A stretch of 51,021 bases of DNA from NCBI GenBank assembly GCA_037479115.1, contig JBBFLK010000023.1:1-51021 (forward strand). Direction: 5' to 3'. Positions 18,724 through 25,651 of this stretch are shown here, in pieces. The position numbers and the translations under genes are program-made. The stretch comes from Anaerohalosphaeraceae bacterium (GTDB taxonomy: Bacteria; Planctomycetota; Phycisphaerae; Sedimentisphaerales; Anaerohalosphaeraceae). Numbering within the stretch: position 1 is the stretch's first letter; every line of letters begins with the position of its first letter. The notes below the pieces were generated by a model. It did not search any database, was not told the origin of the DNA, and saw only the letters and a program-made list of their open reading frames with translations.

Positions 18724-19077
18724 GTCTGAGGTCCTCTCCAAACTTCATGAATCTTTTTCCACCAAAGTAAAAAAACTATTCACCTTGTCAACAATCAAAA
18801 AGATCTGTTCCTCAAAAAGTCCCATAAAAGAAAATCATACCCAATAAAAACAAGCCGAAAATCAAAAAAAACAGTCACTTAAACAAAAAAACCTCTCCTA
18901 ATTTCTTTCATAAAACAAATTTATGAACATATAGGAATTTTATATATAACAAAATAGGAATAATTTCCTTTAATCCTATACCGGTCTTTTTCGATTCCTT
19001 CCTGCAAGTTTTTGCCTTACGTCCTGGTGAGGTCTCCTCGTAACAAAAAAGGAAGTTCAGGATTAAGGAGCTTCATA
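18724..19077. other. AT-rich divergent intergenic region before the hydrogenase operon
   Basis: About 350 nt, markedly AT-rich against its surroundings, between folD (leftward) and the hydrogenase operon (rightward). ATAGGAA occurs twice (about 18931 and 18954), and AGGAA-TAAT-TTCCT at 18956-18969 is a perfect small palindrome. These could be operators. A TATATA box lies near 18941. I found no confident sigma-54 site and no riboswitch I recognise. Confidence 0.4.
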
Positions 19078-20616
19078 ATGACACAAACGGTTGTGCTCAG
19101 TCCCTTGACACGCATTGAGGGTCATTTGGCCATCCACCTCGAAACCGAAGAAGACTCATCCTCCGGCCAAACCATTATCAAAAAAGCCCAATGCGAGGGC
19201 GAAATGTTCCGCGGACTGGAGACCATCCTCCACGGCCGCGACCCGCTGGACGCCCAGCAAATCACCCAGCGTATCTGCGGTGTGTGCCCCATTGCGCACG
19301 GCATCGCTTCCGTTATGGCTCAGGAAATGGCCTTCGGCATTGTCCCGACTCGAAACGGACGAATCGCCCAAAACCTGATTTTGGCCGCCGAATATCTGCA
19401 CTCCCATATCCTGCATTTTTATCATTTGGCCGCTCTGGACTTCGTGGACATCACCGCCATCCTGAAATACAATGGAACCGATCCGACCCTGGTTAATCTG
19501 CGAAATTGGGCCAAAAACGCTCTCGACAAAAATCTGGCCTTTCCGGGCGCCCCCTTCCTGCCCCGCCCTGAAACGGACCAATACATCAAAACCGACGAAG
19601 CCAACTGGCGGCTGATTGACAGCTATGTCAAAGCCCTGAAAATCCGCACGCTCGCACACGAAATGGCCGCTGTTTTCGGCGCCAAGCTGCCTCATTCTAC
19701 CTCACTGGTCCCCACCGGCGTCACCGGCGAAGTCACCATCGAACGCGTTCTGGCCTGCAAGTCTCGGCTGGACCAAATCAAAACCTTCATTCATACGGTC
19801 TATCTGCCGGACCTTTTTACGGCCGCCGCCGCATTCCCGCAATACTGGGATATTGGGAAAAGTCACGGGAATTTCCTCAGTTACGGCGTCTTCCGGATGG
19901 AAGAGAAAACCGGAGAAGCCCTGAACAATTTCCTGCCTTCCGGAGCTGTTATCGGCGGAATTTACCAGCCGCTCGACACGTCAAAAATTCGCGAGTTTGT
20001 CGAGCATTCCCGCTACTCCTCCGGCTCGGGTCTTCACCCCTGGCAGGGTACAACGCAGCCGGAGCCTCAAAAGGGCTACAGCTGGATTAAAGCCCCGCGA
20101 TATGACGGCCAGGTCATGGAAGTCGGGCCGGCCGCTCGACTAATGGTTCTGTGCCTGGGGCCGGGAAATCCCGAAATGAAACAAGATGTTCAAAATGCTC
20201 TGAATGCCGCAGGGGTACCCCTCGAAAAAATTAACTCCGTTCTCGGACGCCACCTCGCCCGCGGACTGGAGGCCAAATGGATTGCCGACCAGTGTGAACG
20301 CTGGCTGGACGAGCTGGAAATCGGCAAACCGGCCGCAGCGGAATTTGCTCTTCCGGAACAGGGCCGGGGCGTTGGTCTGACAGAGGCCCCCCGCGGAGCA
20401 CTCGGACACTGGCTGACAATCCGAAACTACAAAATCGAACGCTATCAGTGCATCGTCCCGACGACCTGGAACTGCTCGCCGCGAGACAATCAGGGACGCC
20501 CCGGCGCCGTCGAAAAAGCCCTCGAAGGAACCGTCCTGCAGAACCCGGCTGAGCCGATTGAAGCAGGCCGTATCGTCCGTTCCTTCGACCCCTGTATTGC
20601 CTGCGCCGTTCATTAA
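19078..20616 (+). CDS. [NiFe] hydrogenase large subunit without C-terminal extension
   Basis: Carries the Ni-Fe active site for H2 activation. ATG at 19078 has AAGGAG upstream and gives the family start TQTVVLSPLTRIEGHL; an earlier TTG in frame lacks support. Ligand Cys pairs are Cys67/Cys70 (RICGVCP) and Cys506/Cys509 (DPCIAC). The protein (512 residues) stops at His512 of DPCIACAVH. Most large subunits carry a further peptide, removed by an endopeptidase after Ni insertion; this one has none. Among known enzymes this is a feature of H2-sensing regulatory hydrogenases and a few others. Gene order is large before small, the reverse of the usual. No maturation (hyp) genes are in the window. 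Export would be by hitch-hiking on the Tat signal of the small subunit. Confidence 0.93.
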   Translation: MTQTVVLSPLTRIEGHLAIHLETEEDSSSGQTIIKKAQCEGEMFRGLETILHGRDPLDAQQITQRICGVCPIAHGIASVMAQEMAFGIVPTRNGRIAQNLILAAEYLHSHILHFYHLAALDFVDITAILKYNGTDPTLVNLRNWAKNALDKNLAFPGAPFLPRPETDQYIKTDEANWRLIDSYVKALKIRTLAHEMAAVFGAKLPHSTSLVPTGVTGEVTIERVLACKSRLDQIKTFIHTVYLPDLFTAAAAFPQYWDIGKSHGNFLSYGVFRMEEKTGEALNNFLPSGAVIGGIYQPLDTSKIREFVEHSRYSSGSGLHPWQGTTQPEPQKGYSWIKAPRYDGQVMEVGPAARLMVLCLGPGNPEMKQDVQNALNAAGVPLEKINSVLGRHLARGLEAKWIADQCERWLDELEIGKPAAAEFALPEQGRGVGLTEAPRGALGHWLTIRNYKIERYQCIVPTTWNCSPRDNQGRPGAVEKALEGTVLQNPAEPIEAGRIVRSFDPCIACAVH

Positions 20617-20651
20617 AGCAAAAGGTGTTCGGACTGATAAGGAACAAAACC

Positions 20652-21617
20652 ATGAAAACGGAAATTCCCTTTACCCGACGCGATTTTCTCAAACTCGGAA
20701 GTTTTCTGGCCGCTTCCGTCTCCATTCCGGGCAAGTGGGCGGAGATTTTCGCCGCCGGTCTGGAAAAAATGACCTCCCATACACCCGTTGTCTGGATTCA
20801 GACGCAATCCTGCACCGGAGATTCCGTCTCACTGCTGAACAGCACAGACCCGGAACCGGCCGACCTGCTGACCCGATACATCACCCTGGTTGTTCATCAG
20901 ACCCTCGGAGCCGCTCAGGGACAGACCTTTATGAAAGCGCTGGATGATGCCGCCTTTCTGAACGGATACCTCCTGGTCATCGAAGGGTCGATTCCGCTCG
21001 GAATGCCGCAGGCCTGTCTGATTGGCGGCAGACCCGCAGAGGAGATTCTTGTGAAATTAATCCCAAAAGCCAAGGCCGTTGTCGCCGTCGGCACGTGTTC
21101 GGCCTTCGGCGGCATTCCTGCCGCAGAAGGCAATCCGACCGGCTCCGGCAGTGTTCAGGATTTGATGAACAAGCATCATCTCAGCTGGAAAAGAAAACTC
21201 GTCAACTGCCCCAGCTGCCCCCCCCATCCCAAACCCATCATCGGCACACTGGCCTATCTGGCCGCCAAAGGATATCCCGAGGTGGACGAAGTGCTGCTGA
21301 CTCCCAGATTCTTCTACGGCACGTCCACACATGACCAGTGCCCGCGCTATCATGACTACGAGCGAAAAATCTTCTCCAGACATTTTGGAGACCCGCACGG
21401 CTGCCTGTTCAAGCTCGGCTGTCTGGGGCCTCTGACCCGTACAGAATGTCCGCATCGGCAGTGGAACGGCGGCGTCAACTGGTGCATCCGGGCCTCCGCC
21501 CCCTGTATCGGATGCAGCTCACCGCATTTTGCCAAAAAGAAAAATTTCCCCTTCTACCGCCTCGGCGAAAAACACCATTCCGTAGAGTACACCGAAAAGG
21601 ACCGAAAAGGAGTCTAA
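20652..21617 (+). CDS. [NiFe] hydrogenase small subunit, Tat-exported, Asp in proximal cluster motif
   Basis: Iron-sulfur subunit passing electrons from the Ni-Fe site. ATG at 20652 follows AAGGAA and opens a Tat signal (RRDFLKLG, residues 9-16), so the enzyme should be periplasmic. Proximal cluster ligands would be Cys54, Asp57, Cys149 and Cys189: the usual CTGC motif reads CTGD. A 3Cys-1Asp cluster is known from actinobacterial-type group 1h enzymes. Distal cluster residues His227, Cys230, Cys251 and Cys257, and medial residues Cys266, Cys285 and Cys288, are all present. There is no C-terminal membrane anchor. The 35-nt gap upstream and 3-nt gap downstream hold no terminator. The electron acceptor is not apparent. 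Confidence 0.92.
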   Translation: MKTEIPFTRRDFLKLGSFLAASVSIPGKWAEIFAAGLEKMTSHTPVVWIQTQSCTGDSVSLLNSTDPEPADLLTRYITLVVHQTLGAAQGQTFMKALDDAAFLNGYLLVIEGSIPLGMPQACLIGGRPAEEILVKLIPKAKAVVAVGTCSAFGGIPAAEGNPTGSGSVQDLMNKHHLSWKRKLVNCPSCPPHPKPIIGTLAYLAAKGYPEVDEVLLTPRFFYGTSTHDQCPRYHDYERKIFSRHFGDPHGCLFKLGCLGPLTRTECPHRQWNGGVNWCIRASAPCIGCSSPHFAKKKNFPFYRLGEKHHSVEYTEKDRKGV

Positions 21618-21620
21618 ACC

Positions 21621-23243
21621 ATGAAGATGTTTCGACTGACTCTCTTTGGAAAAATGCTTTTGATTACGCTGCTGCCGTTTGTGCTGCTGGCCCTGATTCT
21701 TCAGAGCATCAATTACGCCCTTACACGAAAAAATCTCTCGGCACTGGTCAGCCAGTTTGAACAGTCTCTGAACCAAATCAGCGAACAGTCTATCGGTGAA
21801 ATGACCGCCCTGAGCGAAGCCGCCGCCAAAGACCTCCTTCAGGAAATCTTCATCGCCGTAGGCAGCTCCCTTCAGCCCGGCGAAGGGGCCAAATTCCTCG
21901 ACCTGGCCAAAAAGCAAAGCCAGCTCGAACAGGTCAATGAATTCTCCTTCTACGGCCCCGACGGTCGGCTGGAACTGTCTTCCAATCCAAATACCGATAA
22001 ACAAATCATCCCCGCCGACGTGCTTCGGCAGGCCCTCCAAAAGCGGGAGGTCGTCATTCAGGGGCTCGAACAAAATGCTCAAACCCTTCGATTCTACATG
22101 CCGTTGTTTCTCGACGCCGATATGGCCCGGATGAATCCCACAATGGAAATCGGACAGTTTTACGGAATGCTGTTTGTGGAAATGAAAAAAGACCGAATCC
22201 TCCGCAGCATTGCCTCCCAGAAAGAAACCATCGAGAAGGCCGTCACTGAATCTGAACAAAGCAATCAGCGGATTCTCGCCAGGAGCCTTTGGTTCAGTAT
22301 CATTATTGTCGGCCTGTTTTTGCTGCTGGTTTCGGCAGTCCTTGTACCGCTTGCGGCCGGAACCATCATTCGGCCTCTTCGAAAAGCCGTGGAAGCCAAC
22401 CGCACCATTTCGGAGTATCTTTCCTCCGCCGCCGTACAGTTTACTTCCGCCTCGAAAAGTATTGCCAAAGGCGCTTCGGAACAGGCCGCCGCTCTGACCC
22501 AGACGAGCTCCAGTCTCGAACAAATCACGGCCATGACCAAGACCAATGCCCAGCACGCTCAGGAAGCCAACCGTCTGGCCGAAGAAGCCCGGCAGAATAC
22601 CGAAAAAGGACGCCGTGCCATCGAAACCATGAACAATGCCATTGAAAACATCCAGAAAAGTTCGGAGGGAACCGCAAAAATCATCAAGGTTATCGATGAA
22701 ATTGCCTTCCAGACCAACCTTTTGGCCCTGAATGCCGCCGTAGAGGCCGCCCGGGCCGGTGAGGCCGGAAAGGGATTTGCCGTTGTCGCCGAAGAAGTCC
22801 GCAACCTGGCCATGCGGAGCGCCGAAGCCGCGAAAAATACCGCTGCTCTCATTGAAGAAGCCGTCAACCAGGCAAAAAACGGTGTCGGGATTGTCGGTCA
22901 GGTCCGGCAGACTCTCTCTGAAATCGAAACCAGCGTCGTCAAAACCGCCCAAATCATTCACGAAATTGCTCAGGCCAGCGACGAGCAGGCCAAGGGCGTC
23001 GAGCAGATTTTTACCGCCATCAATCAGATGGACCAAATCACTCAGCAAAATGCCGCAAGCGCTGAACAGTCCGCCAGTTCTTCGATGGAACTGGAACACC
23101 AGGCCGGGCGTCTTCAGCAGACCGTCTTTGACCTGCTGGCCCTGCTCGACCGCTCCGTCGAAGGACACATCCCTGTCGGGACCTCTGAAAGGACATCCGC
23201 AGTTCCTGCCGCCCATCCCAAACCGGTCAGGACAACCGTCTAA
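21621..23243 (+). CDS. Methyl-accepting chemotaxis protein with periplasmic sensor domain
   Basis: Transmembrane chemoreceptor (540 residues). TM1 spans about 11-31 and TM2 about 222-244. Residues 32-221 form a periplasmic sensor with a long helix followed by a Cache-like beta region ([15 protein letters not shown]). The HAMP-like stretch after TM2 is short. The signalling hairpin is highly conserved, with its tip around residue 380 (the [19 protein letters not shown] block starts at 363). No CheR-tethering pentapeptide is visible at the C-terminus. It starts 3 nt after the hydrogenase small subunit, with AAAGGAG inside that gene's end, so it is co-translated with it. A terminator follows. 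The close coupling suggests that the receptor reports on the hydrogenase or its redox state. Confidence 0.93.
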
Positions 23244-23258
23244 TTGAATCTCCCCTTG

Positions 23259-23304
23259 GCAGGCGGCTGTTTGTTCGCCCTGTGCGGCCGCCTGCTCCTT
23301 TTTT
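23259..23304 (+). terminator. Rho-independent terminator of the hydrogenase-receptor operon
   Basis: GCAGGCGG at 23259-23266 pairs with CCGCCTGC at 23288-23295, followed by TCCTTTTTTATT. It is the only terminator seen from 19078 on, which supports one transcript for the three genes. Confidence 0.75.
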
Positions 23305-24255: not shown

Positions 24256-24302
24256 ACCTCTGGAACCGACCGAATCTGTCTAAAGGTGTGTCAGGCAAAA
24301 TC

Positions 24303-24803
24303 CCTGTCACTCCCGCGCATCCCCCTACATTCCCGCGCATCCCCCCGTCGTTCCGATGCATCCTCCGTCATTCCCGCGCATCCCCCCGTCGTTCCGACGC
24401 ATCCTCCGTCATTCCCGCGAAGGCGGGAATCCAGCCTTCCCGCGACCTGTCCTTCGAAGCTTCAGCGAAGAAGGAAGGCGAAAATCCAGACCTTTTTTGG
24501 TTCGACGAAGCGCCTGCCCCCTTTTCCCCGGGCTTACGCCCGGGGCTATTTCCCTCGCCAAGCCCCTGTCGTTCCGACGCATCCTCCGTCATTCCCGCGA
24601 AGGCGGGAATCCAGCCTTCCCGCGACCTGTCCTTCGAAGCTTCAGCGAAGAAGGAAGGCGAAAATCCAGACCTTTTTTGGTTCGACGAAGCGCCTGCCCC
24701 CTTTTCCCCGGGCTTACGCCCGGGGCTATTTCCCTCGCCAAGCCCCTGTCGTTCCGACGCATCCTCCGTCATTCCCGCGAAGGCGGAAATCCAGGCCTTT
24801 CTA
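24303..24803. repeat. Tandem-repeat array: 41-bp units followed by 180-bp units
   Basis: Two 41-bp units start at 24328 and 24369 (CATTCCCGCGCATCC type). They are followed by two full copies of a 180-bp unit and a decayed third (GTTCCGACGC at 24391, 24571 and 24751). The overlap 24421-24540 is identical to 24601-24720. Each unit holds an ATTCCC-N8-GGGAAT palindrome, a CCCCGGGC-ttac-GCCCGGGG hairpin and a CTTCG/CGAAG pair. Because 180 is a multiple of three, several frames stay open on both strands, but their products are repeats of repeats and I do not count them as genes. No transposase is nearby. Confidence 0.9.
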
Positions 24804-24817
24804 TTTTGTTCGATGCT

Positions 24818-25651
24818 CTAAGGCTTCTTCTGATACACCCGCACATAATCAATCTCAAAGCGGGCCGGAAAGTCTGTCCCTGAAGGGTCGCCGCCCTGTG
24901 TGCCGCCGATGGCTAAATTCAGCAAAATATAGTGCGGCTCATGAAACGGATTTGCCCCCTGCCCGTCCTGATTGATGGTTTTAGACAGGTCAATCTCGTT
25001 GAGCAGGATATCATCCACATACAGCCGGATAAACTGTTCATCCCAGTCCATCCGCCAGATGTGAAACTTTTCCGACCAGTCCGGGTCGCCGAACTCTTCC
25101 AGGGGCTTTTTCAGGTCATCCCACGCCGGCCGTCCGCCTCCGCCGTCCCAGCAGGCATTCGCCAGCAGCATCCCCCGATAATATTCCATAATGTCGATTT
25201 CACCGCAGCCCGGCCAGCCGCGGGCAAATCCGAGCGTCCAAAACGCCGGCCACAGCCCCGCACGGGTATCAATCCGCCCCCGCATCACAAACCGCCCGAA
25301 TTTCCACGAATGCTTCCCCGCGGTCTTAACACAAGCAGAGGTATATTCCGCATACTCCCGATTCCGCCGCCAGGACCGGCTGTCCGAGCTGTAATTCGGA
25401 TTCCTGACCCGCTCCCGCCTGCCCTCAATAATCAGCATTCCCCCTTCACAGAAGGCGTTTTCCGGCTGATACCACTGGAGCTCCTCATTCCGAACAAACC
25501 CAATCTCATACGTCCAGTTATTCGGGTCCGGCCTGCCGTCTTTTTCGAACTCATCCGCCCAAACCAGCACATATCCGTCCGACGTTTCGGCTTCGGCCGC
25601 AGCCGATGCCGCCAACAACCATCCTGCTGTAAACACCAGCAATTGTTTCAT
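24818..25651 (-). CDS. Secreted glycoside hydrolase family 16 (beta-glucanase type)
   Basis: Hydrolyses beta-1,3 or beta-1,4 linkages in glucans or galactans. ATG at 25651 is chosen: GGGAGGT lies about 6 nt upstream and a clear signal peptide follows (ending SAAAEA); an ATG at 25759 adds 36 unlikely residues. The 277-residue enzyme has the GH16 start VWADEFEKDGRPDPNNWTYE and the catalytic motif GEIDIME (Glu151 nucleophile, Asp153, Glu156 acid/base). The conserved C-terminal strand (FEIDYVRVYQ) is present. Substrate cannot be told; laminarinase or agarase/porphyranase types share the motif. It is divergent from the GH43 gene, 92 nt away. Confidence 0.93.
   Translation of the reverse strand: MKQLLVFTAGWLLAASAAAEAETSDGYVLVWADEFEKDGRPDPNNWTYEIGFVRNEELQWYQPENAFCEGGMLIIEGRRERVRNPNYSSDSRSWRRNREYAEYTSACVKTAGKHSWKFGRFVMRGRIDTRAGLWPAFWTLGFARGWPGCGEIDIMEYYRGMLLANACWDGGGGRPAWDDLKKPLEEFGDPDWSEKFHIWRMDWDEQFIRLYVDDILLNEIDLSKTINQDGQGANPFHEPHYILLNLAIGGTQGGDPSGTDFPARFEIDYVRVYQKKP

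Follow-up and report, generated by a model that had tools for sequence, protein, structure and literature searches.

A hydrogenase-chemoreceptor gene unit in a planctomycete: a candidate exported [NiFe] H2 sensor and its relatives

Hydrogen (H2) is a key currency between anaerobes. We analyzed a stretch of 51,021 nucleotides (hereafter the window; positions 1 to 51,021 of the forward strand of contig JBBFLK010000023.1, assembly GCA_037479115.1) from an Anaerohalosphaeraceae bacterium of the Planctomycetota. It carries the two genes of a [NiFe] hydrogenase directly followed by the gene of a methyl-accepting chemotaxis protein (MCP), and we consider it likely that this unit is a dedicated, exported periplasmic H2 sensor that signals its redox state to the chemoreceptor. 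Among the closest described systems are the sensory hydrogenases HupUV/HoxBC (group 2b), which likewise stand beside a transducer, the kinase HupT/HoxJ, and whose HoxC also lacks a C-terminal extension (DPCMVCTVH). Their output is the kinase-regulator control of hydrogenase genes (PMC6978683), unlike the chemotaxis receptor of the window. They also differ in that HoxB is cytoplasmic and has no signal for twin-arginine translocation (Tat), whereas the small subunit of the window has the Tat signal RRDFLK, and in that the lineages are distinct, with 36% identity between the large subunit of the window and HoxC, and CGVC in place of the CGIC of HoxC. The nearest solved structures are those of the periplasmic [NiFeSe] hydrogenase HysAB, which is Tat-exported and soluble like the enzyme of the window. 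HysAB has the gene order small-large, a C-terminal extension, a metabolic role and selenocysteine in the active site, where the window has a Cys codon.

To our knowledge, no hydrogenase partner is known for the haem-c chemoreceptors of the DcrA/GSU0582/GSU0935 type. These receptors, together with sCache_heme/Tll0287, have a periplasmic Cache/PAS-like MCP sensor with one c-type haem (PMC8396549). Relatives of the receptor described here also have a motif for one c-type haem in a periplasmic MCP sensor, whereas the sensor of the window is haem-free. A signalling link between a hydrogenase and an MCP has been proposed for the [FeFe] group C2 enzymes, listed in HydDB as 'chemotactic (putative)' (PMC5037454); these are metalloenzymes unrelated to the exported [NiFe] enzyme of the window. 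It has also been hypothesized that bacteria of the termite gut find their way in H2 gradients by means of putative sensory hydrogenases (PMC4704652). The archaeon Methanococcus maripaludis was reported to swim towards H2 (Brileya 2013, cited in PMC4266047) and H2 taxis is suspected in a sulfate reducer (PMC12004927), with no receptor named in the cited passage of either. A neighbourhood survey of 2025 tabulates 87 MCP genes as a cluster in the vicinity of [NiFe] large subunits (PMC12727194). No description of a [NiFe] hydrogenase-MCP unit was found in the literature searched, with most subscription papers outside reach. Thus, the original prediction for this DNA, which had regarded a periplasmic hydrogenase-receptor pair as new, holds to that extent for the [NiFe]-MCP combination, while the general idea had already been proposed.

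The genome carrying the window is 3.0 Mb in size and 99.85% complete. The unit consists, all on the forward strand, of the hydrogenase large subunit (512 amino acids, 19078-20616; PF00374, E-value 2.1e-146), the small subunit (321 amino acids, 20652-21617; PF01058 and PF14720) and the MCP (540 amino acids, 21621-23243; PF00015, E-value 3.1e-46). The gaps are 35 and 3 nt when the small subunit starts at 20652; an alternative, longer frame is open from a GTG at 20625. A predicted Rho-independent terminator on the same strand (23258-23303) closes the unit, with a hairpin of -25.6 kcal/mol followed by a T run (z -4.63; equal stability in 0 of 200 shuffles). It was missed by a consensus scan, because the scan allows loops of 3-8 and the loop of this hairpin is 13. 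The three packed genes with a single terminator were thus as originally predicted, and so was the reversed order, since in both E. coli hya and pHG1 hox, fetched as references, the small subunit comes first. The nearest relative (L006), with a large subunit 92% identical, has kept the three-gene unit, its gaps being 33 and 2 nt. The dN/dS ratios of the three genes are 0.06-0.09 against L006 and 0.08-0.11 against L031 (where dS is >1), and by this measure the genes are under purifying selection. An inverted repeat, GAGGTCTCCTC, at 19029-19039, about 40 nt 5' of the large-subunit start, is also present in L006 and is a possible regulator site.

The large subunit has both CxxC pairs (N- and C-terminal) of a [NiFe] hydrogenase and was matched by NF033181 with 587.7 bits, slightly below the cut-off of 600. 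It ends in DPCIACAVH-stop, at the His where the maturation protease normally cuts, and so has no C-terminal maturation extension. Among four fetched references, the H2-sensing HoxC of pHG1 is extensionless as well, and HoxG, HyaB and HybC have the extension. The small subunit begins with FTRRDFLKLGSF, which contains the Tat-type motif. By hydropathy, neither subunit has a transmembrane segment or C-terminal membrane anchor, and no cytochrome gene lies directly beside the unit, the immediate neighbours being FolD and an SGL-family protein. The unit therefore lacks the extension, transmembrane segment, anchor and operon cytochrome of respiratory group 1 uptake hydrogenases. The original prediction had drawn on the absence of an adjacent cytochrome or anchor, and that absence stood. 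However, soluble periplasmic [NiFeSe] hydrogenases have no adjacent partner gene either, so the absence is weak evidence by itself, and we rejected the missing cytochrome as a proof of sensing.

To place the unit among its relatives, 392 genomes of the phylum of the window (large-subunit cut-off 1e-60) and 395 of a second phylum, that of the Deltaproteobacteria bacterium carrying L007 (cut-off 1e-110), were sampled; these cut-offs may miss distant members. The first phylum yielded 23 places, 7 extensionless and 16 with the extension, and the second 42, of which 22 were extensionless and 20 had the extension. Including second copies there were 29 extensionless loci, in 6 of the 392 and 18 of the 395 genomes. 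A same-strand transmembrane transducer adjoins the hydrogenase in all 28 assessable loci (25 MCPs and three histidine kinases); in the remaining locus, L095, the contig ends before the next gene. The order large-small-MCP, which the original prediction had proposed to look for in related genomes, is kept in 24 of the 25 MCP loci, L007 having small-MCP-large instead. Small subunit and MCP overlap by 4 nt in 6 of 24 loci and also in L168. On the other hand, none of the 36 relatives with the extension has an adjacent MCP within the flanks available. These extend up to 12 kb but amount to nearly nothing on one side of L015, L038, L172 and L182, and MCPs, though not kinases, were looked for in them. 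A receptor gene missing from most homologous loci had been named beforehand as evidence against sensing; this does not apply to the extensionless type, with its transducer at 28 of 28 loci, although the 36 unlinked homologues confine the claim to one clade.

Several observations adjoin this survey. At a distance of about 4 kb, MCPs do occur in two loci with the extension, L098 and L099, and in L034:1259-6066 two tandem MCPs lie behind the hydrogenase, the second with a Cache_3-Cache_2 sensor. A scan of genome contigs with the large subunit of the window gave only two loci, and searches at class level with a small subunit, in 63 and 12 genomes, added no extensionless locus. The small-subunit hits L120-L122, L129-L131 and L133-L136 stayed unclassed, the end of their large subunit lying beyond the locus. 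The plasmid collection held no close relative (139 records, all below 60% identity).

The three kinase-linked extensionless units (L173:1793-6633, L174:369-6095 and L175:1557-7392) led us to reject an MCP at every extensionless locus as a general rule. In these, the gene after that of the small subunit encodes a haem-bearing kinase of about 780 amino acids, which has two CxxCH motifs as well as Hpt and HATPase domains; the two genes overlap by 4 nt in two of the three units. Downstream of the kinase is CheX in L174 and L175, and also a receiver-domain protein in L175. The three genomes carry an MCP-linked hydrogenase copy as well. One type of input would thus drive two outputs, MCP and kinase, and a signalling role is therefore favored. 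This bears on the view that the enzyme takes up H2 catalytically in the periplasm and supplies a soluble acceptor whose gene lies elsewhere, the receptor being merely co-transcribed so that cells swim when the enzyme is useful. Such a role would fit the closest solved structures to both subunits, which are periplasmic, metabolic [NiFeSe] enzymes, and the intact ligands of the active site and of most of the Fe-S clusters. It is at odds with the loss of the extension, with the 28 of 28 pairings with an exchangeable output module, with the 36 extension-bearing relatives that are not MCP-linked and with the lack of a match to cytochrome c3 (PF02085) in the genome, a profile that matched in only one control genome. 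We regard it as unlikely.

In the second phylum, all 18 linked MCPs have one CxxCH in the sensor, of the form DCxRCH. By comparison, CxxCH was found before the signalling tip in 5 of 28 unlinked MCPs from five of these genomes, a sample that drew on 30 of 110 MCP places, mostly high-scoring ones. In the alignment, the SLERGEM column holds a Met in all 18 haem-bearing rows and in none of the 7 haem-free ones, one of the seven being the second MCP of L034, with a different sensor, whose alignment there means little. This Met could be the distal haem ligand, a prediction whose match to Met60 of GSU0935 rests on position and co-variation, since the haem-sensor profile retrieved no haem sensor from the sequences of the PDB. 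Weak Pfam matches among 14 linked haem sensors were to Tll0287-like (5; best E-value 0.006), Mcp40H-20_sensor (4; 0.0007) and dCache_1 (2; 3.2e-5). The kinase of L175 has a sensor related to the haem sensors of the MCPs (98.7%), but without the Met. Haem potentials of -251 and -156 mV are within reach of the H2 potential. The former value belongs to GSU0935, with a His-Met haem, and the latter to GSU0582, and both sensors undergo a redox-dependent change of haem coordination (PMC8396549).

Members of the sensor family also occur outside the module, as the unlinked haem MCP L142 (hhalign 95.8% over 60 columns around the haem motif) and L117, an MCP of a module-bearing genome (100% with the haem-sensor family), match it too. 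A hydrogenase with the extension, accompanied by an Fe-S protein gene, lies about 6 kb away from L117:6695-8554 (G717, overlapping L099). Taken together, a c-type haem that the receptor of the window has lost is probably the route of signalling in 18 of the 25 MCP loci. The haem could instead sense another cue (redox state, NO or O2), the hydrogenase only keeping it reduced and ready; haem-Cache and DcrA-type receptors have indeed been described as redox, oxygen or NO sensors (PMC8396549, PMC12889525). However, the planctomycete receptors keep the hydrogenase despite the loss of the haem, which such a role would not predict, and we consider it distinctly improbable.

The receptor of the window has two transmembrane segments by hydropathy, at residues 12-30 and 227-245. 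The roughly 196 residues between them agree with the periplasmic domain of about 190 residues originally predicted. The conserved sensor stretch (residues 83-190; 21867-22190, forward strand; alignment A1) extends from SLQPGEG (SLERGEM in the haem-bearing relatives) to DADMARMN (DCxRCH in the relatives), followed by a conserved Gly region. At the haem site the Asp and Arg are retained and both Cys and the His are gone, so that the receptor has MARMN in place of the CxxCH of haem-c chemoreceptors. The sensor has no Pfam match. In a comparison with the linked haem sensors by hhalign, it gave a probability of 98.1 and an E-value of 7.5e-14 over 154 columns, and two other MCPs of the same genome gave only 3.1 and 2.8. 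Judged from these alignments, the sensor is homologous to the haem sensors of the relatives and has lost the CxxCH and the Met. Likewise haem-free are the planctomycete loci L006, L031-L034 (aligned) and L168. The receptor has the signalling domain of an MCP (PF00015), and the genome has a che system with one CheA, a CheR, a CheX, a receiver protein and four MCPs, in addition to flagellin matches.

The small subunit has also changed. Its proximal-cluster motif is CTGD instead of CTGC, with the remaining Cys/His ligand columns kept, and CTGD, CSGD or CSGE is found in 4 of 25 loci, all of family f1, the other 21 having CxxC. The loss of the receptor CxxCH and axial Met together with this cluster ligand could be taken as a unit decaying in the lineage of the window. 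Yet the three genes are intact in four species of the family, with dN/dS of 0.06-0.11 in the compared pairs (dS >1 for the more distant pair), and an Asp as fourth cluster ligand occurs in the actinobacterial-type hydrogenase. Decay is therefore very improbable in our view.

On quick trees, a single change suffices to explain the extensionless trait. The extensionless rows and L060 together have a branch support of 99, and HoxC falls outside them, in a tree with one 2b reference, on a long branch. In L060, the nearest row with the extension, a gene for a maturation protease adjoins that of the small subunit. Of the 253 pairs formed by 23 module loci, only 12 have a further flanking gene in common within 6 kb. 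The strength of the pairing is thus one of retention, since the loci form one clade and yet so few pairs share another nearby gene. Sensor distances correlated with large-subunit distances with r 0.85, and those of the signalling part with r 0.63 (24 loci). L168 was left out of A1, the trees and the flank test, and L007 out of the flank test.

We favor sensing because the large subunit has no extension, 18 linked receptors have a c-type haem, and the output module can be either an MCP or a kinase. The original prediction of the hydrogenase as a sensor for the receptor was accordingly strengthened for the extensionless clade, with its 28 of 28 pairings, and did not carry over to the unlinked homologues with the extension. 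Several points weigh against it even there. The extensionless loci form one clade, so the pairing counts are not independent events, and the support of its own branch is low (SH-aLRT 44 and 62). Fisher tests, in which related loci count as independent, were therefore given no weight. A missing extension is not unique to sensors, since the extension is absent from three non-sensory group 4 types in addition to the H2-sensing groups 2b and 2d (PMC7294309). At the gas-channel position, the large subunit of the window agrees with HoxG and HyaB (CGVC), in contrast to CGIC in HoxC (alignment). The Asp in place of the proximal-cluster Cys could mean weakened electron transfer, and one haem-Cache transducer is an NO sensor according to a 2026 preprint (PMC12889525). 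Furthermore, the best-supported wiring, through a haem, is inapplicable to the window, because its receptor has none. Two sensor models were of low confidence (pLDDT 50.6 and 62.5), and both matched haem-free Cache/PAS domains better than haem-bearing ones. With both, Foldseek found 3b42 (GSU0935) with E-values of 1e-4 and 3.8e-4 and rmsd >12, ranked below WalK. VIA-align placed Tll0287 (5b82) at rank 28 (Z 8.8, rmsd 3.2 over 115), with haem-free Cache domains reaching up to Z 11.8.

Elsewhere in the genome are HypD and two more [NiFe] large-subunit genes, G000:C13:53485-54798 (L048), which is group 1-like and has the extension, and G000:C5:105053-106210 (L049). The counterpart of the C13 hydrogenase in a relative (L029, G209:C29) has the extension and one in-frame TGA in its large-subunit frame. 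Within the window, a repeated DNA block at about 24286-24980 gives repetitive open reading frames in several frames.

For the H2 sensor that we favor, the following mechanism can be proposed. The general Hyp proteins would load the heterodimer, with no peptide-cleaving protease involved, and Tat would export it. It would remain soluble in the periplasm, next to the sensor domain of the chemoreceptor, with which we infer that it forms a complex. Oxidation of H2 at the Ni-Fe site would reduce the Fe-S chain, and the reduced enzyme would shift the Cache-like domain of the receptor, altering CheA activity and thereby flagellar behavior. The output would be H2 taxis, towards or away from the gas. 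In the haem-bearing relatives, an electron would pass to the single c-type haem of the receptor, with Met-on/Met-off as the switch. In the planctomycete lineage of the window, the state would have to be passed by direct contact, because the haem is lost. With regard to the family as a whole, we lean slightly towards an exported class of sensory [NiFe] hydrogenases that arose from periplasmic group 1-type enzymes, apart from HupUV. Such a class would deliver electrons straight into a receptor c-haem and have an exchangeable output (MCP or kinase); the Planctomycetota would have dropped the haem for contact signalling, and one family would have a re-ligated proximal cluster.

If this is true, [NiFe] hydrogenases became sensors more than once, and did so on either side of the membrane. 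The unit supplies candidate genes for H2 taxis, a testable wiring from an Fe-S chain to a receptor haem and, as a counterpart to compare it with, a naturally haem-free form. In addition, the rule of a large subunit ending in DPCxxCxxH-stop beside a transducer would find further members, perhaps now read as uptake hydrogenases.

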